Below, piece by piece: positions 6,037 to 52,524 of a DNA stretch of 64,000 nt (the stretch's first letter is position 1; every line of letters begins with the position of its first letter). This stretch comes from Aquitalea aquatica (GTDB lineage: Bacteria; Pseudomonadota; Gammaproteobacteria; Burkholderiales; Chromobacteriaceae). The notes under the pieces are model-generated. The model saw only the letters and a list, made by a program, of their open reading frames with translations, was not told the origin of the DNA and ran no database searches. The stretch lies in the NCBI RefSeq assembly GCF_013911085.1, contig NZ_JACERN010000023.1, forward strand, positions 62,001-126,000. The letters are read 5' to 3'. A program made the position numbers and the translations under genes.

Positions 6037-6047
6037 GACCCGATAAC

Positions 6048-6078
6048 CAAACCCCCGCTCCAGCGTTGCGCCGCCTTG
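6048..6078 (+). repeat. Half copy of a palindromic intergenic repeat
   Basis: Thirty bases ending ...CCAGCGTTGCGCCGCCTTG are identical to the left part of the long palindromic repeat between hutG and hutU. The right half is absent; sequence diverges immediately after CCTTG. It lies between the EthD gene and the convergent YcaQ-type gene. Confidence 0.75.
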
Positions 6079-6110
6079 TTCAGAGAGGCCAAGCTATCTG
6101 TCAGCCGGCA

Positions 6111-7337
6111 CTAAGCCGCGTGCAGGACGGCTGACAGTTCGCTTGGTCCCTGCTGCAGCACCAGCTGCGGCGTGCCATGCCAGGCGGCCAGTTTGCGCAA
6201 CATGCCGGCCAGATCCTGGCATAGCTGCGCAGTGGGCTTGATGCCTGCTTCCAGATACAGCGCCTTGATTTCGAATACCCCCTGCTGGCGATGGGCCTTG
6301 GCGTCCATGCGCCCCACCAGCCGGCCACGGCTGAGCAGCGGCAGCACGAAATAGCCGAACTGGCGCTTGGCCGCCGGGGTATAGCATTCGATGCGGTAAT
6401 CAAAGCCGAACAGCTCGCTGGCACGCTTGCGGTCCCACACGACCGGATCAAAAGGCGACAAGGCAGTGCTATGGCCGGATTTGAGCTTGTTTTCGGCCGC
6501 CAGTGCCAATTCGGCCTGCAGGCTGTGATGGACAAACACATCATGCTGCCAGCCCTCGATGCGGGCCGGAATCAGCTCGCCGGCATCGGCTAGCTGGTGT
6601 AGCAGGGCATCGTATTTGCCGCGTTTGAGCCGGTAGTAATCGGCCACCCAGCCAGCCTTGACCACACCCAGCGCGCGGCAGCTGTGGCGCACCATGTCGC
6701 GCTGTGCGGCCTCCACGCTGGGCAGATCGCGCGCGTCACTCCAATCCGGCATTACCCGTTCTGCCACATCGTAGACGCGCTGAAAGCTGCGTCGCTCCTT
6801 CACCATCAACTGCCCAAGCGTGAATAGCACTTCCAAATGGCGTTTTTCCGGCTTCCAGTCCCACCAGCCATCCCCCTTGCCGCCACTGCGTTTGAAATCG
6901 GCGGAGCGCACCGGGCCATGTTGTCTGATCTGTTCCAGTATCGTGTTGACGGCATCCTGATGTTGCTCCAGCCAGCGTTGCGGGTATTTCCAGCCCATCT
7001 GGGCCGGGTCCAGCATGCGATGGCGCAGCAGGCGGTAGTCTTCGCTGGGGACGAAGCAGGCTTCATGCGCCCAGTATTCGAACAGCTGGCCACTGGCGAG
7101 TGCGGCATCCAGCCAGGCCGGGTCGTAATGGCCCAGCCGGCTGTACAGCACCAGATAGGGACTGCGCGCCACCACGCTGATGGTGTCGATCTGCAACAGC
7201 GCCATGCGGCGGATGGCGCTCATTATGTCGAGCGGGCCGGCCTTGCGTCGTGGCGGGGCCAGTAATCCCTGGGCGGCCAGATGCAGCAGGCGGGCTTGTG
7301 ACAGGCTGAGATGCTGGGTCATGGTGTGGGCAGACAT
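6111..7337 (-). CDS. YcaQ/AlkX-type winged-helix DNA glycosylase family protein
   Basis: About 408 residues of the HTH_42 / YcaQ family. Characterised members (AlkZ, E. coli YcaQ) are glycosylases that unhook interstrand crosslinks or remove bulky alkyl adducts. The family-defining block LLQIDTISVVARSPYLVLYS is present, followed by YWAHEACFVP and, near the C-terminus, SPFDPVVWDRKRASELFGFD and CYTPAAKRQFGYFVLPLL. ATG 7337 (SAHTMTQHLSLSQARLL) or the in-frame ATG 7322 are both possible; neither has a clear ribosome binding site. Activity is inferred from the family. Confidence 0.85.
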   Translation of the reverse strand: MSAHTMTQHLSLSQARLLHLAAQGLLAPPRRKAGPLDIMSAIRRMALLQIDTISVVARSPYLVLYSRLGHYDPAWLDAALASGQLFEYWAHEACFVPSEDYRLLRHRMLDPAQMGWKYPQRWLEQHQDAVNTILEQIRQHGPVRSADFKRSGGKGDGWWDWKPEKRHLEVLFTLGQLMVKERRSFQRVYDVAERVMPDWSDARDLPSVEAAQRDMVRHSCRALGVVKAGWVADYYRLKRGKYDALLHQLADAGELIPARIEGWQHDVFVHHSLQAELALAAENKLKSGHSTALSPFDPVVWDRKRASELFGFDYRIECYTPAAKRQFGYFVLPLLSRGRLVGRMDAKAHRQQGVFEIKALYLEAGIKPTAQLCQDLAGMLRKLAAWHGTPQLVLQQGPSELSAVLHAA

Positions 7338-7444
7338 GAGACAGGACGAATGACTATAGCAAAGCCACTGCGCTTGTCGATTGCACTGTGTTCCGTTCCG
7401 CGCCATCCTGCAGTACTGCATCAGGAGCAAGAGGAAAAATAACG

Positions 7445-7678
7445 ATGGATACCGGCAAACATCAGCTGGAGCAGCTGTTTGCCCAGCTTGGTCTGGACAA
7501 TGATGTCACGGCAATAAAAGTGTTTCTGGCACGTCACTGGCTGGAGCCGGAACAGGCGCTGGCCGATGCGCCGTTCTGGAGTGCCGCCCAGGCGGATTTC
7601 CTGCGTCAGGCATTGGCTTGTGACGCGGAATGGGCCGAGGCGGTGGATGAGCTGGCGGTATTGCTAAGCCAGAAATAG
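7445..7678 (+). CDS. DUF2789 family protein
   Basis: A 77-residue protein beginning MDTGKHQLEQLFAQLGLDND, matching the DUF2789 N-terminus, with the rest a short helical domain (WLEPEQALADAPFWSAAQ...FLRQAL). Function unknown in the family. A purine-rich AAGAGGAAAAATAACG precedes the ATG. It is transcribed away from the YcaQ-type gene and closed by a strong terminator. Confidence 0.85.
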   Translation: MDTGKHQLEQLFAQLGLDNDVTAIKVFLARHWLEPEQALADAPFWSAAQADFLRQALACDAEWAEAVDELAVLLSQK

Positions 7679-7699
7679 CAGTCGGCTGCAGTAGTACAA

Positions 7700-7738
7700 C
7701 GCGGCTAGCACCTTTGATTGGGGCTAGCCGCGTTTTTC
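7700..7738 (+). terminator. Terminator between the DUF2789 gene and the convergent chemoreceptor gene
   Basis: Stem GCGGCTAGC / GCTAGCCGC with a 13-base loop, followed by GTTTTTCTT on the plus strand. Confidence 0.8.
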
Positions 7739-7784
7739 TTGTTCGCACGATGTGTCCGGAGATGCAGGGCAGCGGTTACGGCGA

Positions 7785-9503
7785 TTAGCCCGGTGTGGTC
7801 AGGTGTTGGCTGGCGAAGGCAATCTGTCCTTCAGCTTGGCCGGTTTGTGGCTGGCGACTGGCCTGGCCGGATTGGGGCAAGGTGAAGTAGCTGATGGCCG
7901 CTTGCAGCTCGTGCGCCATCTGCTCCATCGCGCCGGCCGAGCTGGCAGTCTGGTTGGCGGCAGTGCTGGTTTCTTCCGACATCTGCGCTACCTGTTCCAC
8001 ATTGCTGGCAATGCCGGTGCCGGCCGCCTGCTGCTCGGCCAGCGCCACCGAAATGGCTCCCACCGATTGCTTGATGCGGTTGACATTGCCGTTGATGCCG
8101 CTGACGGTATCGCGGGCTTGGCCCGCCTGGCGCAGCCCGGTTTCCATGCGTTCCACCGTGGCGTGCACATTGTTGATGACCAGTTCGCTGCTTTCCAGCA
8201 TCTCGCGGATCATGCCGCTGATTTCGGTGGTGGACTGGCCAGTGCGCTCGGATAGCTTGCGCACCTCATCGGCCACCACGGCAAAACCGCGTCCCTGTTC
8301 GCCAGCACGAGCGGCTTCGATGGCGGCGTTCAGCGCCAACAGATTGGTCTGATCGGCCACGTCGCGGATGATGGCCACCACATTGGAAATCTTCTGCGAG
8401 CGATCGCCCATCAGGTCGGCCTGCTGTTGCGACTGGTGGGCGAGGTCTGCCACCGACTGAATGGTTTGCAGCGTGTCGACAATCACCTGTTCGCCAGCTT
8501 GCGCCAACTCACCCGAGGCGGTGGCGTCCTTGGCCACGTCCTGCGCATTGTCGCTGACCGAGCAGATGCTGACTGACAGCTGTTCGACCGAGGCCGACAT
8601 CGAAGACGCCGCACGGGTTTGTTCTTCCGCGCTGATGGCGACCTGTTCCGAGGCACTGGCCAGCTCGCTGGCATGCACGGTCAGCTTGCCGGTAATACCG
8701 TCCAGATGGCGCACCAGCCGGATCAGCTCGCTCTGCATATGGGCCATCGACGCGACAATGCTGTGCTTGTCAGCTGGGCCGACTTGCAGCCGGTCGGCCA
8801 GATTGCCCTGGGCGATGCGGCTGGCCAGCGCCACCACATCACGCGGCTCGCCGCCCAGCTCGGCCAGCAGGCGGCGGATGATGAAGGCGGCCAGCAAGGC
8901 CCCCAGTACGATGCCACCCAGCATCAGCCCCAGCGACAGGGCGGAGAAGGTGCGGGCATGGCTTTGCGAGCTGGCAAAGTTTTCGGCGGCCACCCGCAGC
9001 TGCAGGTCGATCAGGGCATCGATGCGGCTGGAGATGGGGTCAATGGCGGGGTAGAGGTCCTTGTCCAGAAACTGCTGCAGCGCGGCCTGGTCTTTGGCCT
9101 GCACGATCTGGCGCAGCCGCAAGATGCTGGCATCGGCCTGGTGCATGGCTTGCTCGGCCTGATCGGCCAGGCCTTTTTCATCAGCCGTCAGGTAGGTGGC
9201 GCGATAATTGCCCCATTGCTGCTTGAGTGTGGCCTGTGCCTGATCGAGGCCGCTGAGAAATTCAGCCGGGCTCAGCTTGCCGCCATGCAGTTTGTGGGCG
9301 GCATCGACGATATTGACTGCATAGCTGTCGCCGGCCAGCTTCAGTTGCTTGAGGCAGACCACGCGGTCGTTATAGGTGGTGGAAAAGTCGGTCAGGATAT
9401 TTTGCTGGGTCAACCAGCCGAAGCTGCCGACGCCCAGCGTGATCAGCTGTAGCAGGGCGATGAGCGCAAACAGCTTCTGGCCTATGGTAAGCCGGTCCGA
9501 CAT
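7785..9503 (-). CDS. Methyl-accepting chemotaxis protein (four-helix-bundle sensor type)
   Basis: A 572-residue transmembrane chemoreceptor. Order: cytosolic start MSDRLTIGQK, TM1 (LFALIALLQLITLGVGSFGW), periplasmic helical domain of about 150 residues with the spacing of 4HB sensors, TM2 (LGLMLGGIVLGALLAAFII), HAMP (LAELGGEPRDVVALASRIA...), then the coiled-coil signalling domain. The hairpin tip reads [20 protein letters not shown], then [18 protein letters not shown]. No C-terminal CheR-tethering pentapeptide is seen; the tail is Gln/Gly-rich. The start at 9503 has GGGGG seven to eight bases upstream; the frame extends upstream but without signal. Ligand unknown. Confidence 0.93.
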   Translation of the reverse strand: MSDRLTIGQKLFALIALLQLITLGVGSFGWLTQQNILTDFSTTYNDRVVCLKQLKLAGDSYAVNIVDAAHKLHGGKLSPAEFLSGLDQAQATLKQQWGNYRATYLTADEKGLADQAEQAMHQADASILRLRQIVQAKDQAALQQFLDKDLYPAIDPISSRIDALIDLQLRVAAENFASSQSHARTFSALSLGLMLGGIVLGALLAAFIIRRLLAELGGEPRDVVALASRIAQGNLADRLQVGPADKHSIVASMAHMQSELIRLVRHLDGITGKLTVHASELASASEQVAISAEEQTRAASSMSASVEQLSVSICSVSDNAQDVAKDATASGELAQAGEQVIVDTLQTIQSVADLAHQSQQQADLMGDRSQKISNVVAIIRDVADQTNLLALNAAIEAARAGEQGRGFAVVADEVRKLSERTGQSTTEISGMIREMLESSELVINNVHATVERMETGLRQAGQARDTVSGINGNVNRIKQSVGAISVALAEQQAAGTGIASNVEQVAQMSEETSTAANQTASSAGAMEQMAHELQAAISYFTLPQSGQASRQPQTGQAEGQIAFASQHLTTPG

Positions 9504-9797
9504 GATGATTACCCCCTGATTCATCTGGAAATGATGACTGGTTTTATATTGGTATTGTCGTTGTAGTGCGGTGGTGATGCCGCTTGCAAGCGCTGTCTGC
9601 ATGCTTAGGTAAGCGCACTTAGTAGGCTTGCGCAGGGGGTAATCTTGTTGTCATTTGTTTGTCGCATGACGGTATTGATCGACTCGCCCCGCATTGATGG
9701 GTGGCTATCTATAAGCCACTGATTACGTTATAATTCCGCCCCTTCCCGCCATGCTGCCCGCCAGCGGGAAAGCCCTTTTTTCAAGTCAGGAATCGTC

Positions 9798-11774
9798 ATG
9801 AGTCTGTTGTCGCACCAGATCGAGCTGTTATCGCCCGCCAAAACCGCCGAGATCGGCCGTGAAGCCATCTTGCATGGTGCGGATGCGGTGTATATCGGCG
9901 GCCCCAGCTTTGGTGCCCGGCACAATGCCAGCAACAGCCTCGAGGACATCGTGGGCTTGACGCAGTTTGCCCACCGCTACCATGCGCGCATTTTTGCCAC
10001 GCTTAATACCATCCTGCATGACGCCGAGCTGGAAGCTGCGCGCAAGCTGATCTGGCAGCTGTACGACGCCGGCGTGGATGCGCTGATCGTGCAGGATATG
10101 GGTATTTTGCAGATGGACTTGCCACCCATCGAACTGCATGCCTCCACCCAGTGTGATATCCGCGATGCCGACAAGGCGCGCTTTCTGGCCGATGCCGGCC
10201 TGTCGCAACTGGTGCTGGCACGCGAGCTGACCATTCCCGAGATCAAGCGCATTGCCGCCCGTGTGGGCGATGCCGCCACCATCGAATATTTCATTCATGG
10301 TGCCCTGTGCGTGGCCTTCTCCGGCCAGTGTTTCATCAGCCATGCCGATACCGGCCGCAGCGCCAACCGTGGCGACTGTTCGCAAGCCTGTCGCCTGCCT
10401 TACACCCTGACTGACAAGGATGGCGGCGTGGTGGCCTTCGACAAGCACTTGCTGTCGATGAAGGACAATAACCAGAGCAAGAATCTGGAAGCGCTGCTGG
10501 ACGCTGGCGTGCGTTCGCTCAAGATCGAGGGCCGCTACAAGGACGTGAGCTATGTGAAAAACATCACCGCTCACTACCGCTTGCTGCTGGACGAAATCAT
10601 CGAACGCCGCCCCGAGCTGGCACCGGCCTCCAGCGGCAGCTGCGAAATCTTCTTTGCACCGGATCCGGACAAGACTTTCCACCGTGGCAGCACCGATTAC
10701 TTTGCCACCGGCCGCAAGATCGACATCGGCGCTTTCGATTCGCCCAAGTTTGTCGGGGTAGGGCTGGGTGTGGTGCACAAGGTAGGGCCGGACTGGCTGG
10801 AAATTGCCACGCCGGAAAGCATGAGCAATGGCGACGGCATCAACTTCATGAAAAAGCGTGAAGTCGTCGGCATGCAGCTCAATACCGTCAAACAGATCGG
10901 CCATGTGCCCGGCGGTCATCTGCTGTGGCGCTGCCAGCCGAATGATCCGGCCTTGTTGCAAGGGTTGAAGCCTGGCATCGACCTGTGCCGCAACCGCGAC
11001 CACGCCTGGGAGCTGGCGCTGCTGAAAAAGTCGGCCGAACGCAAGGTAGGGGTATGGCTGACGCTGAGCGAACAGGCCGACGGCCTGCAGCTGACAGTGA
11101 GCGACGAGGATGGCTGTAGCGCCACCACCTTTGCTCAGCTGGCGCTGGAGCCGGCCAAGGATGCTGCCAAGGCCGAGGCGGGCCTGCGTGACAGCCTGGC
11201 CAAGCTGGGCAATACCATGTTTGTCGCCCACGACGTGAGCTTGCAGCTGAGTCAGCCGTGGTTTGTGCCGGCATCGGCCATCAATGCCCTGCGCCGCGAG
11301 GCCATCGAACAGCTGGAGCAGGCCCGACTGGCCGGCTGGCTGCGGCCGCAGCGCAAGGCGGCGGTGGAGCCGCCAGTGGAATACCCGGAAAAGACGCTGA
11401 GCTATCTGGCCAATGTCTACAACCAGCTGGCCTGGCAGTTCTATCGCAAGCACGGGGTGGAGGTGATCGAGGCGGCTTACGAGGCGCATCAGGAAGAGGG
11501 CGAAGTCAGCCTGATGATTACCAAGCACTGTCTGCGCTTTTCCTACAATCTCTGTCCCAAGCAGGCCAAGGGTGTGAAGGGGGTGATGGGCCAGGTGCGC
11601 GCCGAGCCGATGACGCTGAAGTCCGGCAATGAAACCTACACGCTGAAATTTGAGTGCCGTCCCTGTGAAATGCATGTGATGGGCAAGATGAAAAAGCACA
11701 TCCTGAAAGCACCGGCACCCAGCGAGATTCCCTACACCGCGCCGATGACCTTCTTCAAGCAACGTCCGCAATAA
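9798..11774 (+). CDS. rlhA: U32 family protein, RlhA-type (23S rRNA C2501 hydroxylation)
   Basis: The 658-residue protein matches the long U32 subgroup of E. coli RlhA (YdcP), which makes 5-hydroxycytidine at 23S rRNA position 2501; the shorter TrhP acts on tRNA. Visible are QIELLSPAKTAEIGREAILHGADAVYIGG-type N-terminus, the U32 signature EYFIHGALCVAFSGQCFIS, and CSQACRLPY, whose cysteines with Cys in the C-terminal part (CRPCEMHVMGKM) fit an Fe-S site. 'Peptidase' in database names is probably misleading. AGGA precedes the start. A TATAAT hexamer lies at 9729-9734, but no convincing -35 was found. Confidence 0.88.
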   Translation: MSLLSHQIELLSPAKTAEIGREAILHGADAVYIGGPSFGARHNASNSLEDIVGLTQFAHRYHARIFATLNTILHDAELEAARKLIWQLYDAGVDALIVQDMGILQMDLPPIELHASTQCDIRDADKARFLADAGLSQLVLARELTIPEIKRIAARVGDAATIEYFIHGALCVAFSGQCFISHADTGRSANRGDCSQACRLPYTLTDKDGGVVAFDKHLLSMKDNNQSKNLEALLDAGVRSLKIEGRYKDVSYVKNITAHYRLLLDEIIERRPELAPASSGSCEIFFAPDPDKTFHRGSTDYFATGRKIDIGAFDSPKFVGVGLGVVHKVGPDWLEIATPESMSNGDGINFMKKREVVGMQLNTVKQIGHVPGGHLLWRCQPNDPALLQGLKPGIDLCRNRDHAWELALLKKSAERKVGVWLTLSEQADGLQLTVSDEDGCSATTFAQLALEPAKDAAKAEAGLRDSLAKLGNTMFVAHDVSLQLSQPWFVPASAINALRREAIEQLEQARLAGWLRPQRKAAVEPPVEYPEKTLSYLANVYNQLAWQFYRKHGVEVIEAAYEAHQEEGEVSLMITKHCLRFSYNLCPKQAKGVKGVMGQVRAEPMTLKSGNETYTLKFECRPCEMHVMGKMKKHILKAPAPSEIPYTAPMTFFKQRPQ

Positions 11775-11781
11775 GGCTGCG

Positions 11782-12198
11782 ATGATGGCGGATATCGAAC
11801 GACTGGAAACCTGGGTCAAGTACAAGAACGGCCTGTGCAGCGACTGCATGGGCAGCTGCTGCTCGATGCCGGTGGAAGTGCGCCTGCCGGATTTGGTGCG
11901 CATGGGTGTGGTGGACGAATTCGAGCTGGAAGAGCCGATCAAGAATATTGCCAAGCGGCTGGAAAAGCAGCGGGTGATCCAGCACTTCAATTTCAAGCAT
12001 GGCATCTTCACCCTGATGCGCCGCGCCAATGGCGACTGCCACTATCTGGACCAGCAGAGCAGGCTGTGTACCATTTACGAGCGTCGGCCCAATACCTGCC
12101 GCAACCATCCCAAGGTTGGTCCCAAACCCGGTTTTTGCGCCTACACCCGCAACCCCAAGGCTGCCCGCCCGGTGGTGGCGGTCAAGCTGACTGGCTGA
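11782..12198 (+). CDS. YkgJ family cysteine-cluster protein
   Basis: A 138-residue protein with eight-cysteine spacing typical of the YkgJ/UPF0153 family: CSDCMGSCCSMPVE near the N-terminus, then CHYLD, CTIYERRPNTCRNHP and a C-terminal CAYTRN. The cysteines are thought to bind a metal or Fe-S cluster; function is unassigned. It starts seven bases after rlhA, so the two are probably cotranscribed. Either of two adjacent ATGs (11782, 11785) could be used. Confidence 0.88.
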   Translation: MMADIERLETWVKYKNGLCSDCMGSCCSMPVEVRLPDLVRMGVVDEFELEEPIKNIAKRLEKQRVIQHFNFKHGIFTLMRRANGDCHYLDQQSRLCTIYERRPNTCRNHPKVGPKPGFCAYTRNPKAARPVVAVKLTG

Positions 12199-12251
12199 AG
12201 CCGGCCGCGCTTGCCCGTGCTGCAGCTGACAATGCCTAGCGAAAGACAAAG

Positions 12252-12716
12252 ATGAATTCAGTTCTTGCCCTGATGGCCTTTGCCATCGGTGTGGTGGTGC
12301 CGCTGCAGGCGGCGATCAATAATCAGCTCAAGCAGCTGCTGGACGGCAGTACCGTGCTGGCAGCGCTGATTTCATTTGCCGTGGGAACCGTCAGCCTGGC
12401 CTTGCTGGCGGTGTGCAGCGGGCAGAAGTTTAGCGGTCTGGCGCAGCTGGCGCGTGGTGAGTGGTGGATGTTTCTGGGGGGGCTGTTGGGTGCGTTTTTC
12501 GTGTTCGGCACCACTTTGCTGGCCCCGCGGCTGGGGGTAGCCACCATGTTGTCGCTGATCATCGCCGGCCAGGTGTGCACGTCTTTGTTGTTTGACCGCT
12601 TTGGCTGGCTGTCCATGCCACTGCGCGAGGTCAATCTGCCACGGCTGGCCGGGGCCTTGCTGGTGGTGGCCGGTGTGTTGTTGGTGAATTTTGGCGACAA
12701 GTGGTTTGGCCGCTGA
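12252..12716 (+). CDS. DMT superfamily transporter, YdcZ (DUF606) type
   Basis: A 154-residue inner-membrane protein with about five hydrophobic segments and the YdcZ opening ALMAFAIGVVVPLQAAINNQ, then GGLLGAFFVFGTTLLAPRLG and VAGVLLVNFGDKW. DUF606 proteins are half-size drug/metabolite transporter relatives that likely dimerise. Substrate unknown. It follows the YkgJ gene by about 50 bases and is closed by an inverted repeat. Confidence 0.88.
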   Translation: MNSVLALMAFAIGVVVPLQAAINNQLKQLLDGSTVLAALISFAVGTVSLALLAVCSGQKFSGLAQLARGEWWMFLGGLLGAFFVFGTTLLAPRLGVATMLSLIIAGQVCTSLLFDRFGWLSMPLREVNLPRLAGALLVVAGVLLVNFGDKWFGR

Positions 12717-41136: not shown

Positions 41137-41865
41137 ATGGAATACAAGGTGTCTGCCACAGCTCAACCGCGCTATCTGCGCATCAAGGAATACATTCTGG
41201 AAGGCATTCGCAAGAAGGAATTCCTGCCGGGTAACAAGATACCGCCGGAACTGGAGCTGGCCAGACAGTTTTCCGTGTCGCGCATGACGGTGAACAAGGC
41301 GGTACGCGATCTGGCCGAAGCTGGCATCCTGCTGCGCTTTGCCGGTGATGGCACTTACGTGGCCGAACGCAAGGCGGAATCGCCGCTGCTGGACATCAAC
41401 AATATCGCCGCGGAAGTGGAGGCGCGTGGCCATACCCACACGGCCGACGTACATCAGCTGGAAACCATCTCTGCCGGCGAGGAAATTGCCCTGCAACTGG
41501 GAGTAAAGGTGGGCACACCAGTGTTCCATTCGATTCTGGTGCACCGCGAAGACGGCCTGCCCATCCAGCTGGAAGACCGTTACGTCAATCCGGCCTGGGC
41601 ACCGGACTATATCCTGCAGGACTTCAGCCGGCGCACGCCCAATGAATACCTGATGGAGAGCTGCCCGCTGACCGATATCGAACACACGGTCGAGGCAGTG
41701 TTGCCGGATGCGCGCGAACTGGCCATGCTGGGCATCACCGCCAGTGAACCCTGCCTGCTGGTGCTGCGGCGCACCTGGTCTTACAAGAATCTGGTCACGT
41801 TTGCCCGGCTGGTCCATCCTGGCGGCCGCTACAAGCTGCGCTCGCAAAGCCGGGTCAAGAAATAA
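41137..41865 (+). CDS. hutC: Histidine utilization repressor HutC
   Basis: GntR-family repressor that senses urocanate and represses hut genes. N-terminal winged helix: RYLRIKEYILEGIRKKEFLP, PPELELARQFSVSRMTVNKA, then RDLAEAGILLRFAGDGTYVA; from about residue 85 the UTRA effector domain (HREDGLPIQLEDRYVNPAWA; TDIEHTVEAVLPDARELAML). The 242-residue length is normal. It is upstream of uppP, which separates it from hutIGUH; no operator palindrome is visible before hutC itself. Confidence 0.93.
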   Translation: MEYKVSATAQPRYLRIKEYILEGIRKKEFLPGNKIPPELELARQFSVSRMTVNKAVRDLAEAGILLRFAGDGTYVAERKAESPLLDINNIAAEVEARGHTHTADVHQLETISAGEEIALQLGVKVGTPVFHSILVHREDGLPIQLEDRYVNPAWAPDYILQDFSRRTPNEYLMESCPLTDIEHTVEAVLPDARELAMLGITASEPCLLVLRRTWSYKNLVTFARLVHPGGRYKLRSQSRVKK

Positions 41866-42982: not shown

Positions 42983-43022
42983 TTGACATGACTTCGTATA
43001 CGGTTTATTTGTATATACAAAT
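42983..43022 (+). promoter_or_regulatory. hut promoter with HutC operator
   Basis: TTGACA (42983-42988), 17 bases, then TATTTG as a -10. The perfect 16-bp palindrome ATTTGTATATACAAAT (43007-43022) overlaps the -10 and start region. Its core GTATATAC fits the HutC-subfamily consensus GTNTANAC. Binding would block hutIGUH transcription until urocanate accumulates. Confidence 0.82.
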
Positions 43023-43033: not shown

Positions 43034-44284
43034 ATGACCCCCACTCACGATAGCCCGCGCAGCCTGTGGCTCAATGCCCGGCTGGCCACCATGGACACGC
43101 AGCATGCCGCCCCCTATGGCGCCCTGCATGGCCACGCCTTGGTGGTGGAAGCTGGCCGTATTGCCGCCATCCTGCCGCAGCAGCAACTGAACCCGGCCAG
43201 CTTTGATGGCGAGGTGGTGGATGTGGCCGGCCGCTGGATCACCCCCGGCTTCATCGATTGCCACACCCATCTGGTGTATGGCGGCAACCGCGCTGCCGAG
43301 TGGGAAAAGCGGCTGCAAGGTGTGCCTTACCAGCAGATCGCCGCCGAAGGTGGTGGCATTGTCTCCACCGTGCGTGCCACCCGCGAGCTGGACGAGGCAC
43401 AGCTGGCGGCCGCCAGCCTGCCGCGCCTGCAGGCGCTGATGGCCGAAGGGGTGACCACGGTCGAAATGAAATCCGGCTATGGCCTGAACCTGGCAGATGA
43501 GCTGAAGCAGCTGCGCGTGGCCCGGCAACTGGCGGCCAGCCAGCCGGTGGAGGTATCGCCCACCTTGCTGTCCGCCCATGCACTGCCGCCGGAATTTGCC
43601 GGCAATGCGGATGGCTATATCGAGCATGTCATCCGCGACATTCTGCCCGCCGTGGCAGTGGAACAACTGGCCGAGGCGGTGGATGTGTTCTGCGAAGGCG
43701 TGGGTTTTTCCCCGGCGCAAACCCGCCGCGTATTCGAAGCCGCGCAGCAATACGGCCTGCGGGTAAAGGGCCATGTCGAGCAGTTGTCCAATCTGCATGG
43801 TGCAGCGCTGGTGGCCGAATTCGGTGGCTTGTCCGCCGACCATATCGAATACCTGGATGAGGCCGGAGTGGACGCCATGCGCGTGGCCGGCACCGTGGCG
43901 GTGCTGCTGCCCGGCGCATTTTATTTCCTGCGCGAAACACAGAAACCGCCAGTCGAGTTGCTGCGTGCAGCCGGCGTACTGATGGCCGTATCCACCGACC
44001 TTAACCCCGGCACCAGCCCGTTTGCCTCCATCCGGCTGGCGATGAACCAAGCCTGCGTGTTGTTCGGCCTGACCCCGGAAGAGGCCATGGCCGGTACCAC
44101 CCGCCATGCCGCCCAGGCGCTGGGCCGAGGCCACAGCCATGGCCGGCTGGCGGTGGGCTGCATGGCCGACCTGCTGCTGTGGGATATCGATCACCCTGCC
44201 GAAATCGTCTATGGACTCGGCGTCAATCTGCTGGCTGAACGGGTATTCCACGGTCAGCGTCCGCTCAAGGAAAACGCAAGATGA
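43034..44284 (+). CDS. hutI: Imidazolonepropionase
   Basis: Third step of histidine degradation: opens imidazolonepropionate to formiminoglutamate. The 416-residue amidohydrolase-fold enzyme has ITPGFIDCHTHLVYGGNRAA (zinc His residues), EGGGIVSTVRATRELDEAQL, VEMKSGYGLNL, VKGHVEQLSNLHGA and DLNPGTSPFASIRLAMNQAC. AGGAG precedes the ATG. Its stop overlaps the hutG start (ATGA), so the two are coupled. Confidence 0.96.
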   Translation: MTPTHDSPRSLWLNARLATMDTQHAAPYGALHGHALVVEAGRIAAILPQQQLNPASFDGEVVDVAGRWITPGFIDCHTHLVYGGNRAAEWEKRLQGVPYQQIAAEGGGIVSTVRATRELDEAQLAAASLPRLQALMAEGVTTVEMKSGYGLNLADELKQLRVARQLAASQPVEVSPTLLSAHALPPEFAGNADGYIEHVIRDILPAVAVEQLAEAVDVFCEGVGFSPAQTRRVFEAAQQYGLRVKGHVEQLSNLHGAALVAEFGGLSADHIEYLDEAGVDAMRVAGTVAVLLPGAFYFLRETQKPPVELLRAAGVLMAVSTDLNPGTSPFASIRLAMNQACVLFGLTPEEAMAGTTRHAAQALGRGHSHGRLAVGCMADLLLWDIDHPAEIVYGLGVNLLAERVFHGQRPLKENAR

Positions 44285-45216
44285 ACCCGGATATGAAGTT
44301 GTGGAGCGGCCGCATCGATGCCGGCGAAGGCGAACTGGCCCGCCGCTGGCACCAGCTGGCCACGCCGTTTGCCACTGGCCTGCCGGGCGGCATCGGCATT
44401 GTCGGCTTTGCCTGTGATGAAGGCGTGCGGCGCAATCAGGGCCGTGTCGGTGCGGCGGCTGCGCCCGTGGTCATCCGCAAGGCGCTGGCCAATCTGGCCT
44501 GGCATCAGGACCGGCCATTGTGCGATATGGGCGATGTAGCCTGTGCCGATGGCGATCTGGACGCCGCCCACCTGCGGCTGGCTGCTGCAGTGGAACAACT
44601 GGCGCGTGCCGGGCATTTCCCGCTGGTGCTGGGTGGTGGCCACGAAACCGCTTACGGCACCTGGCGCGGCCTTGCCGCAGCGCATCCGGACAAGGTAATC
44701 GGCATCATCAATTTCGATGCCCATTTTGATATCCGCGAGGCGGCCGAGGCCACCTCCGGCACGCCGTTTGCGCAGATTGCCGCCGATTGTAGCAGTGCCG
44801 GCCACCCCTTCCATTACCTGTGCCTGGGGGTGGCCGAGCCATCCAATACCCAGGCGCTGTTTGCCCGCGCCGGGCAGCTGGGCGTGCAGTGGCTGCTGGA
44901 CAGCGCGCTGGGCCAGGCGGGCCTGGCCAATGCGCAGCGTACTGTGCAGGACTTCATCGACCAGGTGGACATCGTCTATCTCACCATCGACCTGGATGTG
45001 CTGCCTGCCAGCGTGATGCCTGCCGTATCCGCCCCTGCCGCCATGGGCGTGGAACTGCCGGTGGTGGAAGCGCTGGTCAGCGCCATTGCCGCCAGCGGCA
45101 AGCTGGCCGGGGCGGACCTGGTAGAGCTGAACCCGCAATTCGATATCGACAGCCACGGCGCGAAGACGGCGGCCCGGCTGGCGTGGAGTATTACCCGTCA
45201 TCTGGCCTCGCAGTAA
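44281..45216 (+). CDS. hutG: Formimidoylglutamase
   Basis: Hydrolyses formiminoglutamate to glutamate and formamide. The 311-residue ureohydrolase has the Mn-binding motifs GGGHETAYGTWRGL, IINFDAHFDIREA and YLTIDLDVLPASVMPAVSAP. Together with hutI, hutU and hutH it makes the complete four-step pathway; no hutF is needed. A long palindromic repeat begins at its stop codon. Confidence 0.95.
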   Translation: MNPDMKLWSGRIDAGEGELARRWHQLATPFATGLPGGIGIVGFACDEGVRRNQGRVGAAAAPVVIRKALANLAWHQDRPLCDMGDVACADGDLDAAHLRLAAAVEQLARAGHFPLVLGGGHETAYGTWRGLAAAHPDKVIGIINFDAHFDIREAAEATSGTPFAQIAADCSSAGHPFHYLCLGVAEPSNTQALFARAGQLGVQWLLDSALGQAGLANAQRTVQDFIDQVDIVYLTIDLDVLPASVMPAVSAPAAMGVELPVVEALVSAIAASGKLAGADLVELNPQFDIDSHGAKTAARLAWSITRHLASQ

Positions 45217-45329: not shown

Positions 45330-45385
45330 CGGTAAGGAATTCAGGGCAGTTGCCCGACAACATGGCAGTACCAAGGAGACAACCC

Positions 45386-47068
45386 ATGAGCGCATCACAA
45401 CAAGACAGCCGTTTCGACCCGACTCGCGTCATCCGCGCCCCGCGCGGCACCGAGCTCTCCTGCAAGAGCTGGCTGACCGAAGCCGTCTACCGCATGATCC
45501 AGAACAATCTGGACGCCGAAGTGGCCGAGCATCCGCAAAGCCTGGTGGTGTATGGCGGCATTGGCCGCGCTGCCCGCAACTGGGAGTGCTACGACACCAT
45601 TCTGGACGTGCTCAAGCGTCTGGAAGACGACCAGACCCTGCTGATCCAGTCCGGCAAGCCGGTGGGTGTGTTCACCACCCATGCCGACGCGCCGCGCGTG
45701 CTGATCGCCAACTCCAACCTGGTGCCGCATTGGGCCAATTGGGAACACTTCAACGAGCTGGATAAAAAGGGCCTGATGATGTACGGCCAGATGACCGCCG
45801 GCTCCTGGATCTACATCGGCTCGCAAGGCATTGTGCAAGGCACTTATGAGACATTCGTTGCCGTCGCCCGCCAGCATTTCGACGGCAAGGCGCAAGGCCG
45901 CTGGATTCTGACCGGTGGTCTGGGTGGCATGGGTGGTGCACAGCCGCTGGCCGCCACCATGGCCGGCTTCAGCATGCTGGCCGTTGAGTGTGACGAAAGC
46001 CGCATCGATTTCCGCCTGAAAACCCGTTATGTCGACCGCAAGGCCACATCGCTTGACGAGGCGCTGGCCATCATCGAAGACGCCAAGCACAGCGGCAAGG
46101 CCGTATCGGTGGGCCTGCTGGGTAATGCCGCCGACGTATTCACCGAGCTGGTGAACCGTGGCATCACCCCGGATGTGGTGACCGACCAGACCTCCGCCCA
46201 CGACCCGGTGCACGGCTACCTGCCGCAAGGCTGGACGGTGGAAGAGTGGCGTGCCAAGCAGCAAAACAGCGCCGCTGAAATCACTGCAGCCGCCAAGAAA
46301 TCCATGGCGGTGCAAGTACGCGCCATGCTGACCCTGCAGGAGCGCGGCGCCGCCACGCTGGACTACGGCAACAACATCCGCCAGATGGCGCTGGAAGAGG
46401 GCGTACAGAATGCCTTCGACTTCCCCGGCTTTGTCCCGGCCTATGTACGCCCGCTGTTCTGCGAAGGCATCGGCCCCTTCCGCTGGGTGGCCCTGTCCGG
46501 CGACCCGGAAGACATCTACAAGACCGACGCCAAGGTAAAAGAGCTGATCCCGGATGATCCGCACCTGCACAACTGGCTGGACATGGCGCGTGAACGCATC
46601 AGCTTCCAGGGCTTGCCGGCACGTATCTGCTGGGTGGGCCTGAAAGATCGCGCTCGTCTGGGTGCGGCCTTCAACGAAATGGTGAAGAATGGCGAGCTCA
46701 AGGCACCGATCGTGATTGGCCGCGACCATCTGGACTCCGGTTCGGTGGCTTCGCCCAACCGCGAAACCGAATCCATGCTGGATGGCTCGGATGCCGTGTC
46801 CGACTGGCCGCTGCTCAATGCCCTGCTGAACACCGCTGGCGGTGCCACCTGGGTGTCCTTGCACCATGGCGGTGGTGTGGGCATGGGCTTCTCACAGCAC
46901 TCCGGCGTGGTGATCGTGTGTGACGGCAGCGACGCAGCCGCCAAGCGCGTGGGCCGCGTACTGCGCAACGACCCGGGTACTGGCGTGATGCGTCATGCCG
47001 ATGCGGGCTACGACATCGCCAAGAACTGCGCTCGCGAGCAGGGCCTGGATCTGCCGATGCTGAAATAA
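45386..47068 (+). CDS. hutU: Urocanate hydratase
   Basis: Second step of histidine degradation, converting urocanate to imidazolonepropionate with tightly bound NAD. The 560-residue protein is full length, with [40 protein letters not shown] (dinucleotide-binding loop), [17 protein letters not shown] and [20 protein letters not shown] carrying the active-site Cys. AAGGAG precedes ATG 45386. Upstream it is separated from hutG by the long palindrome, so its expression relative to hutIG may be modulated. Confidence 0.97.
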
Positions 47069-47284: not shown

Positions 47285-48817
47285 ATGAGCATTCTCAATA
47301 TCGTACCGGGCCAACTGACACTGGCCGACCTGCGCCGCGTTTCACGTGAAACCGGCCTCAAGCTGCAACTGGATGCCAGCAGCCACGCCGGCATCGACGC
47401 CGCTGCCGCCACCGTGGCACGTGTGCTGTCCGAAGGGCGCACCGCCTACGGCATCAACACCGGCTTTGGTCTGCTGGCCAATACCCGCATCGCGGCGGAC
47501 GAACTGGAGCTGCTGCAACGCTCCATCGTGCTGTCGCACGCCGCCGGCATTGGCGCGCCGATGGACGACTCCACCGTACGGCTGGTGATGGCGTTGAAAA
47601 TCAACTCGCTGGCGCGTGGCTTCTCCGGCATCCGCCGTCAGGTGATCGAAGCCTTGGTGACACTGTTCAACCACGGCATCTACCCGGTGATTCCGCAAAA
47701 GGGTTCGGTCGGCGCCTCCGGCGACCTGGCCCCGCTGTCGCATATGAGCGCGGTGCTGATCGGCGAGGGCGAAGCCTTCGTCAATGGCCAGCGCGTACAT
47801 GGCCGGGAAGCCATGCTGGCCGCTGGTCTGCAGCCTATTACCCTGGCCCCGAAAGAAGGCCTGGCCCTGCTGAACGGCACGCAAGCTTCCACCGCCTTTG
47901 CCCTGGAAGGCCTGTTTGCTGCGGAAGACCTGTTCGCCTCGGCCGTGGTGGCGGGCTCGATGTCGGTGGAAGCAGCCCAGGGCAGCCGCACCCCGTTTGA
48001 TGCGCGCATCCACGCCGTGCGCGGCCATGCCGGCCAGATCGATGCCGCCAGCGCCTACCGCGCACTGCTGGAACACAGCGAAATCGAACACTCGCACGAA
48101 AACTGCGGCAAGGTGCAAGACCCGTACAGCCTGCGCTGCCAGCCGCAGGTGATGGGTGCCTGCCTGACCCAGATCCGCCACTCCGCCAGCGTGCTGGAAG
48201 TGGAAGCCAACTCGGTATCGGACAATCCGCTGGTATTCAGCGACGACAACGACATCCTGTCCGGTGGCAATTTCCACGCCGAACCGGTGGCTTTTGCTGC
48301 CGATAACCTGGCCCTGGCCATTGCCGAAATCGGCTCACTGTCCGAACGCCGCATGGCGCTGCTGATCGACAGCAACCTGTCCAAGCTGCCACCCTTCCTG
48401 GTGAATAACGGCGGGGTGAACTCCGGCTTCATGATTGCCCAGGTCACCGGCGCGGCGCTGGCTTCGGAAAACAAATCGCTGGCGCACCCGGCTTCGGTGG
48501 ACAGCCTGCCGACCAGTGCCAACCAGGAAGACCATGTGTCGATGGCTACCTTTGCCGGTCGCCGCCTGCGCGACATGGCCGGTAACACGGCCGGCATTCT
48601 GGCGGTGGAACTGCTGGCAGCCTGCCAGGGCGTGGATTTCCGCGCGCCGCACAAGGCCAGCGCCAAGCTGGAAGAAGCCAAGGCCGAGCTGCGCGAACGC
48701 GTGGCCTTCTACGACAAGGACCGTTACTTCGCACCGGACATTGAACAGGCCGCCCAGTTGGTAGCCAGCGGCAGCTACAACCGCTTTGTCGCTGCCGGTT
48801 TGCTGCCGTCGCTGTAA
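47285..48817 (+). CDS. hutH: Histidine ammonia-lyase
   Basis: First step of histidine degradation: histidine to urocanate and ammonia. The 510-residue protein has the MIO prosthetic triad Ala-Ser-Gly at residues 144-146 in [16 protein letters not shown], with [13 protein letters not shown] and [11 protein letters not shown]-type motifs also present. A parS-like site is embedded near codon 20 (47339-47352). It ends in the first of two identical terminator repeats. Confidence 0.97.
47339..47352. other. parS-like ParB binding site 5
   Basis: GTTTCACGTGAAAC, perfect palindrome, flanks C...C. Inside hutH, read as VSRET. Confidence 0.8.
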
Positions 48818-48860: not shown

Positions 48861-48900
48861 TGCCCGGCTATCTCACGGTAGCCGGGCTTTTTTGCGTGTG
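48861..48900 (+). terminator. Terminator after hutH, left copy of a 40-bp direct repeat
   Basis: Stem GCCCGGCTA / TAGCCGGGC and TTTTTTG. The whole 40 bases recur without change at 52485-52524, on the other side of the amidohydrolase / transporter-dioxygenase cassette. Confidence 0.9.
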
Positions 48901-48945
48901 ATAGCTGATGGTCGCTGATCTTGCCTGTTAGTAATGTCAGATGAA

Positions 48946-48977
48946 TGTATATACAAAACAACATTATTGTATATGCA
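48946..48977 (+). promoter_or_regulatory. Two HutC-like operators before the amidohydrolase gene
   Basis: TGTATATACA at 48946-48955 is identical to the core of the hutI operator; TGTATATGCA at 48968-48977 has one change. Centres are 22 bases apart, about two helical turns. The ATG of the amidohydrolase is 27 bases downstream. This suggests HutC (or a close GntR paralog) controls this gene. Confidence 0.65.
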
Positions 48978-49003
48978 ATCAATTTGATCTTGGTGAGGTC
49001 GTG

Positions 49004-50182
49004 ATGAGCCAAACAGTCTTCTCCGCAGCCATCCAGCAAGCAAGGCCAGCAATGACAGCATTGCGCCAGCATTTGCATGCGCACCCTGAACTTGGCTACG
49101 CCGAATGGCAGACCAGCGCCCTGATCGCCAGCAGCTTAGAGCAATGGGGTTATCAGGTAGAACGCGGCTTGGCGGGGACTGGAATCGTTGCCACGCTCAA
49201 GCAAGGAGATGGCAGCAAAGTGTTGGGACTACGCGCCGATATGGATGCCTTGCCCATTCAGGAAGAGGCCGATCGACCACATGCCAGCCGCCAGCCGGGG
49301 GTGATGCACGCCTGCGGACATGATGGCCATTGTGCCGCCTTGCTGGCTGCTGCCCGGCTATTGGCAGCCCCGGACAGCTTCAATGGAACTTTGCGATTGA
49401 TCTTCCAGCCGGCCGAAGAGTGTCAGCAATCCGGTGCCAAGGCCATGCTGGAGCAAGGGCTGTTTCAGCGCTTTCCCTGTGATGCCATCTTCGCCCTGCA
49501 CAACTGGCCTGGCATCCCGGTTGGCCAGTTCGGTTTGCTGGCTGGCCCGCTGATGGCCTCCACCGATACCGTGCATATCCGTATCCATGGTCACGGGGGG
49601 CATGGTGCCATGCCGCACCAGGCGGTTGACCCCATTCTGGTTGGTGCTGCCCTTACGCTGGCCTTGCAAAGCATCGTGGCGCGCAATGTCGATCCACTTG
49701 ATGTTGCCGTGGTTACCGTGGGGGCCGTGCATGCGGGCAGCCTGTCCTCGGTGATCCCGGACCTGCTGGACATGGCGCTGACTGTCAGGGCGCTGCGCCC
49801 GCAAGTCCGTGAGCTGCTGCTGGAGCGCATCCGCCAGTTGACCTTGCAGCAGGCGGCCAGCTTTGGTGCAAGCGCTGAGATCACGGTGGACCCCTGTCAT
49901 TTTCCCGTTCTGGTGAATGACGCAGAGCACACGGCCTTTGCCCGCCAGGTTGTGCTGGACTGGTTGGGCGAGCAGGGTCTTTATGCTTCAGTCAAGGCGC
50001 AGACCGGCAGCGAGGACTTTGCCTTCATGCTGCAACACTGTCCCGGTTGCTATCTGCTGCTGGGCAATGGTCCGCTGGAAGGCGGCTGCATGTTGCATAA
50101 CCCGGCATACGATTTCAATGACCAGGCGCTGCCGTATGCGGCGGAATACTGGCAGCGTCTGGCCATGGCCTATCTGCGCTGA
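49004..50182 (+). CDS. M20 family amidohydrolase (hippurate/IAA-amino acid hydrolase type)
   Basis: A 392-residue zinc aminoacylase-type enzyme. Metal-binding blocks are intact: GLRADMDALPIQEEADRPHA, GVMHACGHDGHCAALLAAAR (Cys and His ligands), LIFQPAEECQQSGAKAM (Glu base), and C-terminal GSEDFAFMLQHCPGCYL with MLHNPAYDFND. M20D members cleave N-acyl amino acids or auxin conjugates. Two HutC-like operators precede it and a transporter-dioxygenase gene follows by 50 bases with no terminator between, so they form one transcription unit. The natural substrate may be an N-acylated histidine; this is inference. Confidence 0.9.
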   Translation: MSQTVFSAAIQQARPAMTALRQHLHAHPELGYAEWQTSALIASSLEQWGYQVERGLAGTGIVATLKQGDGSKVLGLRADMDALPIQEEADRPHASRQPGVMHACGHDGHCAALLAAARLLAAPDSFNGTLRLIFQPAEECQQSGAKAMLEQGLFQRFPCDAIFALHNWPGIPVGQFGLLAGPLMASTDTVHIRIHGHGGHGAMPHQAVDPILVGAALTLALQSIVARNVDPLDVAVVTVGAVHAGSLSSVIPDLLDMALTVRALRPQVRELLLERIRQLTLQQAASFGASAEITVDPCHFPVLVNDAEHTAFARQVVLDWLGEQGLYASVKAQTGSEDFAFMLQHCPGCYLLLGNGPLEGGCMLHNPAYDFNDQALPYAAEYWQRLAMAYLR

Positions 50183-50232
50183 TTCGCGGCGCGCAAGCAA
50201 AGCTGTTGTCTGCCAAGGAAGAGAGGTCCGTA

Positions 50233-52473
50233 ATGAATAGCCCGGTTGGCGGTGTTATCCCGTCGCTTCTGGTTTCCAGCCAGGCCAAGCAGCGGCTGAT
50301 CATTGGCTGCACCATCGGCAATGCACTGGAGTTTTTCGACTTCATCGTATTCAGTTTCCTGATGCTGTTTCTGGGGCCGGTATTTTTCCCCGCGGCCAGC
50401 GAGTATGGAAAACTACTGCTGACCACGGCAACTTTTGGGGTGGGTTTTCTGATGCGTCCGATCGGCGGCATGCTGATCGGCTCCTATGCCGACCGTCATG
50501 GCCGTCGCTCGGCACTGACATTGACCCTGCTTATGATGGGCCTGGGCTGCGGCATGTTGGCTGTGGTACCAAGCTATGCCCAGATCGGTGTAGCAGCGCC
50601 CTGCATCGTGGTGCTGGCACGGCTGATACAGGGTTTTGCTGCAGGGGGCGAAGTGGGGGCATCCACCACCTTGCTGGTAGAGCAGGCTGCGCCGGCGCAG
50701 CGTGGGTTTTACGCCAGCTGGCAGCCCGGCAGCCAGAATCTGGGCGTGATGCTCGGTGCCTTGGTGGTGATGGGCTTGGTCGCCGGCTTACCGGCGCAGG
50801 ACATGGCGGAATGGGGTTGGCGTATTCCCTTCTTCATCGGCATGCTCACCGCACCGGTCGGGCTATATGTGAGAAGGCATCTGGAAGAAAGCCTGACCTT
50901 GGCTCCAAGCCTGGAGTCACCGCAGCAACTGACCAGGGAGGCGGCCAAACAGCAACCACTGCGTATGGTATTCCGTCATTACCGCGTCAAGCTGCTACTT
51001 AGCGTGCTGCTTTTGCTCAGTATTGTTGTATGTACCCAGATCATTGCTTTTTACATGCCAGCCTTTGCCGCCCGTGAACTGGGCTTGCCCACCAGCATGA
51101 CCTTGCTGGCCAGCGTGCTGGTGGGGGGGATCGGCTTTGTGCTGGCACCGCTGGTGGGCATGCTGTCTGATCGGGTCGGGCGCAAGCCAGTCATCTTGTG
51201 GTCGCGGCTGCTGATGTTACTGCTGATCCTGCCGTGCTATCAGTTGCTGATTCGACAGCCTACTGTTGGCAATTTACTAATTGTTATCAGTCTGCTATCC
51301 GTGTTGCTGGTGATGCAGGTAGTGCCCGGCATCACCATGCTACCCGAGCTGTTTCCCAAGGCGGTCCGCACCACGGGCATGTCCGTTGCCTATGGCTTGG
51401 GTGTCTCGGTGTTTGGTGGTTTTTCCCAATTCTTTGTCACCTGGCTAATCCAGTGGACTGCCAGCCCATACGCGCCAGCCTGGACCATGATGGTTACGGT
51501 TGCCATTTCCAGCCTGGCCTTGTTAGGCATCCGCGACCGCACCGGCGAAAGTATGGATGAACACATCGCTAGAGTGGAATGTAATCAGTCGGTCATCGCT
51601 GTAGTAACAAGCAGTGTGCTGCGGTCAATATCAGGAGCAATCATGCGATATGCACAATCAGACATCCGCCTGTCCGAGGAAACCATACAGGCCTTCCAGC
51701 GCGACGGTGCGGTCTGCATCCGGCAGTTATTCAGTCCGGCGGAGCTGGCGGCATTGGCCGAGGGCATTGCGGCCAATTTGCAGCAGCCCAGCCCACGCGC
51801 CAAGGTAGCAAGCCAGCCTGATGATCCCGGCTGGTTTTTTGAGGACTTCTGTAATTGGCAGGAGAATCCGGCTTATCGCCAGTTGATTTTCACTCCCAGA
51901 CTGGGGCAGGTGGCAGCACAGCTGATGGGTTCGCAGCAGGTTCGGCTATATCACGACCATCTGCTGGTGAAGGAGCCGAATACCCGGCAAAAGACGCCGT
52001 GGCATCAGGATCAGCCTTATTACAATGTGGAAGGGCAGCAAAACTGCAGCATGTGGCTGCCAATCGACCCCATCCCACGCTCTGCCACGCTGGAATTTGT
52101 TGCCGGCTCGCATCGCGGCCCATGGTTGATGCCACGCAGCTTCATGGACAAGCAAGCCAAGTGGTTTCCTAAAGGCAGTCTGGTGGACTTGCCGGATATC
52201 GAGGCAGACCGTGAAAATTTGTCCATCTTGGGTTGGGCGCTGGAGCCGGGCGATGCGGTGTTCTTCCACATGCTGACCCTGCATGCCGCCGCTGGCGTGG
52301 GCGAGCAACGGCGGCGGGTATTTTCGGTACGCTTCTTGGGCGATGATATGCGGCATGCGCCACGCCCTTGGGTGACCTCGCCCGACTTTCCTGGGTTATG
52401 TGATGTATTGCCAGCTGGGGCTGCACTCGATCACCCCCTGTTTCCCTTGCTGTTCCCGGCCGAAGGGCGCTGA
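50233..52473 (+). CDS. MHS-family MFS transporter fused in frame to a PhyH-type 2OG dioxygenase
   Basis: A single 746-codon frame with two complete proteins. Residues 1-455: metabolite:H+ symporter of the MFS (GCTIGNALEFFDFIVFSFLM, MRPIGGMLIGSYADRHGRRS, GFAAGGEVGASTTLLVEQAA, GMLSDRVGRKP). From residue 471 (ATG 51643): PhyH-family Fe(II)/2-oxoglutarate oxygenase with HXD in TPWHQDQPYYN, GSHRGPWLMP and distal LTLHAAAGVGEQRRRVFSVR. The joint (about 455-470, NQSVIAVVTSSVLRSISGA) is unlike either family. CAGGAGCAATC before ATG 51643 is a good internal ribosome binding site, so the dioxygenase may also be made alone. ATG 50233 is preferred over the upstream TTG because GAGG is correctly spaced. Confidence 0.88.
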   Translation: MNSPVGGVIPSLLVSSQAKQRLIIGCTIGNALEFFDFIVFSFLMLFLGPVFFPAASEYGKLLLTTATFGVGFLMRPIGGMLIGSYADRHGRRSALTLTLLMMGLGCGMLAVVPSYAQIGVAAPCIVVLARLIQGFAAGGEVGASTTLLVEQAAPAQRGFYASWQPGSQNLGVMLGALVVMGLVAGLPAQDMAEWGWRIPFFIGMLTAPVGLYVRRHLEESLTLAPSLESPQQLTREAAKQQPLRMVFRHYRVKLLLSVLLLLSIVVCTQIIAFYMPAFAARELGLPTSMTLLASVLVGGIGFVLAPLVGMLSDRVGRKPVILWSRLLMLLLILPCYQLLIRQPTVGNLLIVISLLSVLLVMQVVPGITMLPELFPKAVRTTGMSVAYGLGVSVFGGFSQFFVTWLIQWTASPYAPAWTMMVTVAISSLALLGIRDRTGESMDEHIARVECNQSVIAVVTSSVLRSISGAIMRYAQSDIRLSEETIQAFQRDGAVCIRQLFSPAELAALAEGIAANLQQPSPRAKVASQPDDPGWFFEDFCNWQENPAYRQLIFTPRLGQVAAQLMGSQQVRLYHDHLLVKEPNTRQKTPWHQDQPYYNVEGQQNCSMWLPIDPIPRSATLEFVAGSHRGPWLMPRSFMDKQAKWFPKGSLVDLPDIEADRENLSILGWALEPGDAVFFHMLTLHAAAGVGEQRRRVFSVRFLGDDMRHAPRPWVTSPDFPGLCDVLPAGAALDHPLFPLLFPAEGR

Positions 52474-52484
52474 ATCGTCTGATG

Positions 52485-52524
52485 TGCCCGGCTATCTCAC
52501 GGTAGCCGGGCTTTTTTGCGTGTG
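52485..52524 (+). terminator. Terminator, right copy of the 40-bp direct repeat
   Basis: Identical over 40 bases to the hutH terminator at 48861-48900. It closes the transporter-dioxygenase gene and lies before a convergent permease gene. Confidence 0.9.

Follow-up and report, generated by a model that had tools for sequence, protein, structure and literature searches.

An inserted amidohydrolase and transporter-oxygenase cassette behind hutH in Aquitalea aquatica and its probable link to histidine utilization

Gene organization of the cassette

A two-gene cassette was found directly 3' of hutH in a 64-kb stretch of the Aquitalea aquatica genome (contig NZ_JACERN010000023.1, positions 62,001 to 126,000; hereinafter referred to as the window). 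It consists of a gene for an M20D amidohydrolase, followed by a single open reading frame (ORF) that joins a transporter of the metabolite:H+ symporter (MHS) type to a PhyH-type Fe(II)/2-oxoglutarate (2OG) oxygenase, and it has hutH on one side and a convergent CitMHS-type gene on the other (Table 1). This unit had been described in an earlier reading of the DNA alone (the original prediction), and both genes proved to be present as described. An exact HutC operator precedes the cassette, a perfect direct repeat brackets it, and relatives of its oxygenase recur near histidine utilization (hut) genes of other bacteria. The feature is real and its link to hut is well supported; its function is what we infer below.

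The M20 protein resembles M20D amidohydrolases in passing their family model and in carrying motifs that serve as metal ligands (Table 1), whereas its scores against the equivalog models CpsA and DoeB2 were well under cut-off. Judging from a GGTGAGG motif upstream, its translation most likely starts at ATG 49004 and not at 48941; the operator therefore lies upstream of the gene and not within it. For the transporter, ATG 50233 is the most likely start, rather than TTG 50206.

The fusion (50233-52473) is one open frame, with MFS/MHS domains at approximately residues 25-440 and PhyH at residues 497-704. The transporter part is MHS-like by sequence, its score of 360.2 bits against TIGR00883 being under the curated cut-off of 443.45. 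The PhyH triad (H121, D123, H214) was invariant across 37 aligned sequences, and the AF2 model of the domain had a mean pLDDT of 87.7. At the junction, ATG 51643 looks like the former start of a separate phyH gene, as if the preceding stop codon had been lost. Since this in-frame ATG is accompanied by AGGAG, PhyH may also be made as a separate protein.

Table 1. Features of the hut locus and the cassette in the window
Feature	Position	Strand	Match or remark
hutC, repressor of histidine utilization	41173..41847	+	TIGR02018, 290 bits (cut-off 220)
Canonical HutC operator TGTATATACA before hutI	43010..43019		Exact TGTA-N2-TACA match
hutI, imidazolonepropionase	43034..44284	+	TIGR01224, 471 bits
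hutG, formimidoylglutamase	44281..45216	+	TIGR01227, 314 bits
hutU, urocanate hydratase	45350..47068	+	TIGR01228, 974 bits; start codon taken from the ORF list
hutH, histidine ammonia-lyase	47285..48817	+	TIGR01225, 701 bits
Terminator-like hairpin 3' of hutH	48861..48900		Copy 1 of 40-nt perfect direct repeat
Canonical HutC operator TGTATATACA	48946..48955		Exact match; start 58 bp before the M20 ATG
Imperfect second operator TGTATATGCA	48968..48977		1 mismatch
M20D amidohydrolase	49004..50182	+	TIGR01891, 350.8 bits (curated cut-off 153.75); motifs ACGHDGH, PAEE, LHN
MHS/MFS metabolite:H+ symporter part of fusion	50233..51642	+	PF07690/PF00083; TIGR00883 below cut-off
PhyH Fe(II)/2OG oxygenase part of fusion	51643..52473	+	PF05721, 90.2 bits (cut-off 22); HQD...H triad 121/123/214
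Terminator-like hairpin	52485..52524		Copy 2 of direct repeat

HutC operators

HutC binds TGTA-N2-TACA, as stated in the available part of PMC12977541. Only two exact sites of this kind were present in the window, at 43010 and 48946, against 0.13 expected, and none of 100 shuffles reached two. The former begins 24 bp upstream of the hutI ATG, and both are positioned as operators directly before hut or cassette genes. The original prediction had placed HutC-like operators before the cassette; one is exact, and the second, at 48968, is a near-match only. The cassette thus has a canonical operator in its promoter region in a genome that encodes HutC, and by these sequence features it is very probably under HutC regulation, with HutC expected to bind at 48946.

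The arrangement shares with the HutC regulon the repressor, the operator (PMC12977541, in part) and the adjoining hut enzymes. In the portion of Leyn et al. (2016; PMC5343134) available, taxon-specific transporters are described as usual accessory members of that regulon, whereas the word "dioxygenase" is absent from its main text and no amidohydrolase-oxygenase module was found there.

The sequence TGTATATACA occurred at four sites genome-wide. Two are those of the hut locus, the third (L153, position 1501) precedes an ABC transporter permease gene (Pfam BPD_transp_1), and the fourth is within an ORF (L159). Operator-like sites were also observed inside two similar genes of this genome (L155, L158) that appeared phage tail-sheath-like by eye.

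Insertion behind hutH

Two copies of a perfect 40-nt direct repeat, the terminator-like hairpin of hutH, flank the cassette. The original prediction did not mention the repeat; its interval (48861-52524) runs exactly from the first copy to the second. The 27-nt core of the repeat, with up to 3 mismatches allowed, was found in just these two copies in the genome. Among nine other genomes of the genus, eight carried hutH. In all eight, the gene that lies 3' of the cassette here directly follows hutH, and no match to the cassette was found in the approximately 1-1.5 kb behind it. The first terminator piece was matched behind hutH, in single copy, in seven of the eight; the remaining one (L235) had a different hairpin, as judged by eye.

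No PhyH relative was detected at E ≤ 1e-40 in the nine other genus genomes. At the same threshold, 14 of 60 other genomes of the family contained relatives, all at 42-47% identity. The PhyH tree joined the window protein, as sister, to sequences from Halomonas, Marinobacter, Pseudomonas segetis and a Gemmatimonadetes metagenome-assembled genome (fork support 95/93). Because the cassette is absent behind hutH in the eight other genus genomes, its PhyH lacks a close relative in the family, and the tree places it elsewhere, the cassette is, on this comparative evidence, a recent acquisition by insertion. Its GC content was 58.6%, below the 64.1% of the hut genes and the 60.8% of the window as a whole, and GC at third codon positions was 67-69% in the cassette and 75-79% in the hut genes.

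The 40-nt duplication brackets the insert although no transposase or integrase gene was found within it, the two described genes filling 49004-52473 between the repeats (genes farther out were not scanned).

PhyH relatives near hut genes

The best 80 of 565 confirmed PhyH relatives, which do not form an unbiased sample, were surveyed over up to 8 kb on each side, or less at contig ends (loci are numbered L). HutH, HutU or HutI was encoded near PhyH in 35 of the 80 loci; in L044 the hut genes lay nearly 6 kb away. The hut-linkage label required at least seven changes on the PhyH tree, and therefore the linkage is not one inherited cluster. Operator-like sites were present in 28/35 hut-linked loci versus 4/45 others, and a reversed control pattern in 0/35 and 5/45, respectively. 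In Comamonadaceae loci, PhyH was placed among the hut genes. In L141, from the same taxonomic order as the window, the genes ran HutC-HutH-HutU-PhyH-HutD-HutI-(HutF-like)-HutG (HutD labelled by Pfam, HutC and HutG2 by cluster representatives, HutF-like given without a scan).

Wider stretches were taken for 31 of the loci found of a PhyH subfamily with 39-47% identity. Hut genes were nearby in three of them (L147, L150, L213), and one more had a HutC neighbour (L223). HutC-family regulators above the TIGR02018 cut-off adjoined PhyH convergently in L140 and divergently in L223, where an operator between the two genes starts 61 bp before the match to PhyH. No description of hut-linked PhyH was found among the best-ranked matches in open-licence PMC literature.

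In L147, a run of IclR-like, agmatinase-like, PhyH, HutU and HutH genes (6756-12311, + strand) was observed, and the opposite strand encoded a HutU relative, incomplete at the end of the stretch, and HutI (2-1264 and 5464-6612, - strand). The best model for this HutU relative was S-methyl thiourocanate hydratase, at 547 bits and below the cut-off of 880. By its gene content, L147 possibly encodes a parallel route for a histidine analogue.

Transporter-M20-PhyH modules in other bacteria

An M20 gene lay within 4 kb of PhyH on the same strand in nine of the 80 loci (L024, L025, L026, L030, L071, L077, L082, L090, L096); the home-made M20 models were seeded with eight of these nine hits, so other M20 types may be missed. 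Identity of the window M20 was 59-60% with its counterparts in L071 and L077 and 54% with the one in L090. In Halomonas and Pseudomonas segetis, transporter-M20-PhyH modules, partly headed by hutH, were found behind HutC-type operators. L025 and L030 have the order HutH-transporter-M20-PhyH; in each, a single operator lies 59-64 bp upstream of HutH, and in L030 a 383-nt gap separates hutH from the transporter ORF. L024 and L026 have transporter-M20-PhyH without nearby hut genes, and an operator-like site approximately 230-270 bp before the transporter ORF (the exact TGTATATACA in L024, TGTACATACA in L026). The transporters of these four loci are of the DcuC/YfcC kind (L030 scanned, the others assigned by cluster) and the M20s are ArgE-like; the transporter and M20 of the Halomonas-type modules thus differ from those of the window.

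Transporter clusters adjoining PhyH, labelled from scanned representatives, comprised a permease closest to ProY (9 loci), HisJ-like binding proteins (9), YfcC-like (4) and Na+/H+-antiporter-family proteins (4). The L090 locus (Pseudomonas sp. RIT-PI-q) has genes for S-formylglutathione hydrolase, PhyH, HisJ, HisQ, HisM, HisP and M20D in a single run on one strand, with HisQ and HisM above their cut-offs. A search of the genus of genome G871 for L090-like operons found PhyH at E ≤ 1e-100 in one of 146 genomes, with LysR and aldehyde dehydrogenase genes and no match to the M20 queries.

The exact MHS-M20-PhyH set was found nowhere else among the 80 loci and the plasmid records. No MHS gene lay upstream of PhyH on the same strand in the 80 loci, the two MHS matches (L084, L098) being on the opposite strand, and in none of 72,556 plasmid records was 80% of the fusion covered at a single place. 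The best MHS in the plasmid search (L205, 5980-8419; Variovorax plasmid, 53.7%) was followed by a gene for an M14-family metallopeptidase, a possible alternative deacylase partner, and no hut gene was annotated within 13 kb.

The original prediction was supported in part. Beyond that prediction, the recurrence of PhyH relatives near hut genes (35/80), the similar modules in Halomonas and Pseudomonas segetis and the gene run of L090 are new. The link to histidine catabolism that it had drawn was strengthened by the HutC operator, the hut linkage of the PhyH family, the modules behind HutC-type operators, and the HisJQMP-M20D-PhyH combination in Pseudomonas.

Possible reaction of the oxygenase

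The best match of the window PhyH in both sequence and fold was MysH (PDB 9c9n, 9ci4; phmmer E 9.3e-28; Foldseek E 2.8e-23, TM-score 0.76). At 26% identity a close sequence relation was not found, and the context in the window is hut. MysH works in cyanobacterial sunscreen biosynthesis, where the accessible text of PMC10510106 predicts that it hydroxylates a glycine substituent and thereby sheds it. After MysH and SnoK/SnoN, the Foldseek neighbours of the PhyH model included proline hydroxylase H11, GriE and EctD. PHYHD1/FJS, which according to a partial view of PMC12709175 demethylate free 2'-O-methylnucleosides, are likewise PhyH-type 2OG oxygenases acting on free small molecules, although of another substrate class; in the 21 PDB hits obtained with the window PhyH sequence at E ≤ 1 the name PHYHD1 did not appear, the two proteins not having been aligned directly.

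In L090, an S-formylglutathione hydrolase gene (TIGR02821, above cut-off) precedes the PhyH match by 139 bp. As this enzyme is part of formaldehyde disposal, its position fits N-demethylation. Aldehyde dehydrogenase genes were located within 1.9 kb upstream of PhyH on the same strand in L033, L034 and L078. Together, these neighbours and relatives, with the Rieske genes noted below, lean towards dealkylation, without identifying the substrate.

Caffeine N-demethylation depends on Rieske chemistry, whereas Fe(II)/2OG chemistry is proposed for the window cassette. In that route, as given in part of PMC4408171, bacteria demethylate an N-methylated heterocycle ahead of central catabolism.

In two Paraburkholderia loci (L206, 6043-11352; L076, 4727-10044), a vanillate-demethylase-type Rieske pair was observed 3' of PhyH, with a LysR gene intervening in L206 and a DUF2817 (AstE/AspA-like) protein also encoded 3' of PhyH in L076.

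Proposed pathway and alternatives

We tentatively read the cassette as a HutC-controlled, recently acquired peripheral module of histidine catabolism, with a confidence slightly short of even. Histidine or urocanate would relieve HutC repression so that the cassette is made, and the MHS symporter would bring in a masked histidine derivative. The cytoplasmic M20D amidohydrolase would then take off an N-acyl (or amide) group, and the importer-fused PhyH would oxidatively strip a second substituent, most likely N-methyl, as formaldehyde, leaving free histidine for HutH. The substrate might be an N-acylated N-methylhistidine such as N-acetyl-methylhistidine or, should the M20 accept it, a dipeptide resembling anserine. 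A histidine or imidazole derivative is a quite probable substrate, and deacylation by the M20 is also likely, if a shade less so; N-demethylation by PhyH is plausible but somewhat doubtful. More speculatively, the PhyH family may demethylate methylhistidines at nitrogen by Fe(II)/2OG chemistry, to our knowledge as the first bacterial enzyme to do so. Under HutC regulation, it would return methylhistidine or its N-acyl or peptide conjugates (muscle, actin turnover, urine) to histidine, and the fusion found here would hand substrate directly from the membrane to the oxygenase.

Several observations weigh against this pathway. The majority of PhyH loci, also among the hut-linked ones, lacked an M20 match, and 45 of the 80 lacked any HutH, HutU, HutI or HutG match. 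L090, the strongest case for formaldehyde, contained neither a hut gene nor an operator in 16.8 kb, and the ProY-like, YfcC-like, HisJ-like and HisP labels are best hits below equivalog cut-offs. L082 (6727-8795) and L096 (6643-8792) place an M20-PhyH pair inside a purine-degradation cluster with OHCU decarboxylase and UreD (by cluster; L082 scanned), together with a xanthine permease in L082 and an ABC transporter in L096; the pair may point to N-methyl-imidazoles as a motif shared between purines and histidine, or to another role. The substrates of known MHS transporters of this kind are carboxylates and betaines. FghA/FrmB was encoded within 3 kb of PhyH in only three of 119 loci (L090, L135, L225), of which the 39-47%-identity subfamily contributes two, and no formaldehyde gene was found within the window's cassette. 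The 37-row PhyH model cannot show the substrate, and the MHS-PhyH fusion was seen in this strain only, in a draft genome of 48 contigs. Finally, the genome contained 12 operator sites, roughly chance level, and 43 of the reversed control pattern; it is therefore placement in the hut locus, not mere occurrence, that carries weight.

Another reading is that a transferred catabolic cassette for a non-imidazole substrate came to lie behind hutH by chance, its HutC-like site arising by chance or recruitment. The recent insertion at a terminator, the PhyH loci without hut genes, the operator-like sites genome-wide and the Variovorax MHS without an annotated hut gene all suit it. In addition, the M20s of L024 and L025 may have a substrate other than imidazole, because they pass the acetylornithine deacetylase model TIGR01892 (341 and 333 bits; cut-off 298). 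The original prediction itself had named frequent occurrence of the cassette away from hut genes as a counter-indication, and the 45 loci and the two purine clusters go partly in that direction, while the exact three-domain set occurred only here. Set against this are the exact operator in the cassette promoter region, the transporter-M20-PhyH modules behind operators in other lineages and the PhyH genes inside hut operons, and we regard a non-imidazole substrate as quite improbable. Hardly more probable is the simple case, in which the cassette imports and deacylates N-acetylhistidine or a similar compound while PhyH is a bystander or has a different substrate. The M20D family, the MHS-type importer and the HutC operator agree with it, but it is PhyH that is found with hut genes, in 35 of 80 relatives, and an M20 accompanies it within 4 kb on the same strand in only nine. 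The original prediction of uptake and unmasking of a histidine derivative gains from the hut link; its example, N-acetylhistidine, is a weak choice, as deacylation of that compound would already yield histidine and leave the oxygenase idle. The neighbours suggest an extra oxidative step, most simply N-demethylation.

That step could instead be hydroxylation of a carbon (ring, C-beta, acyl or alkyl part) or the shedding of an N-substituent larger than methyl, still within HutC-controlled salvage of a histidine derivative. The amino-acid hydroxylases and EctD among the Foldseek neighbours would agree with this, as would the aldehyde dehydrogenase neighbours, which suit a bigger aldehyde, and the glycine shedding predicted for MysH in the available part of PMC10510106. 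A simply hydroxylated histidine, however, would not feed HutH, and the hydrolase beside PhyH in L090 points to formaldehyde; we consider this unlikely, although the most serious of the alternatives.

The hut pathway is among the oldest-studied catabolic systems, yet in several proteobacterial families its operons include an oxygenase gene for which the literature searched gave no role. If PhyH demethylates or otherwise unmasks histidine derivatives as proposed, the known diet of the pathway would widen, a large group annotated as "phytanoyl-CoA dioxygenase" would gain a function, and the microbial fate of methylhistidine would become testable. With its transporter-oxygenase fusion, the cassette would couple uptake to catalysis in an unusual way.

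Scans for defence systems (padloc) and RNA families gave no match. A thiourocanate (ergothioneine) route was considered for the window and rejected, HutU scoring 974 bits as urocanate hydratase versus 714 and 697 bits with the thio models, both below cut-off.

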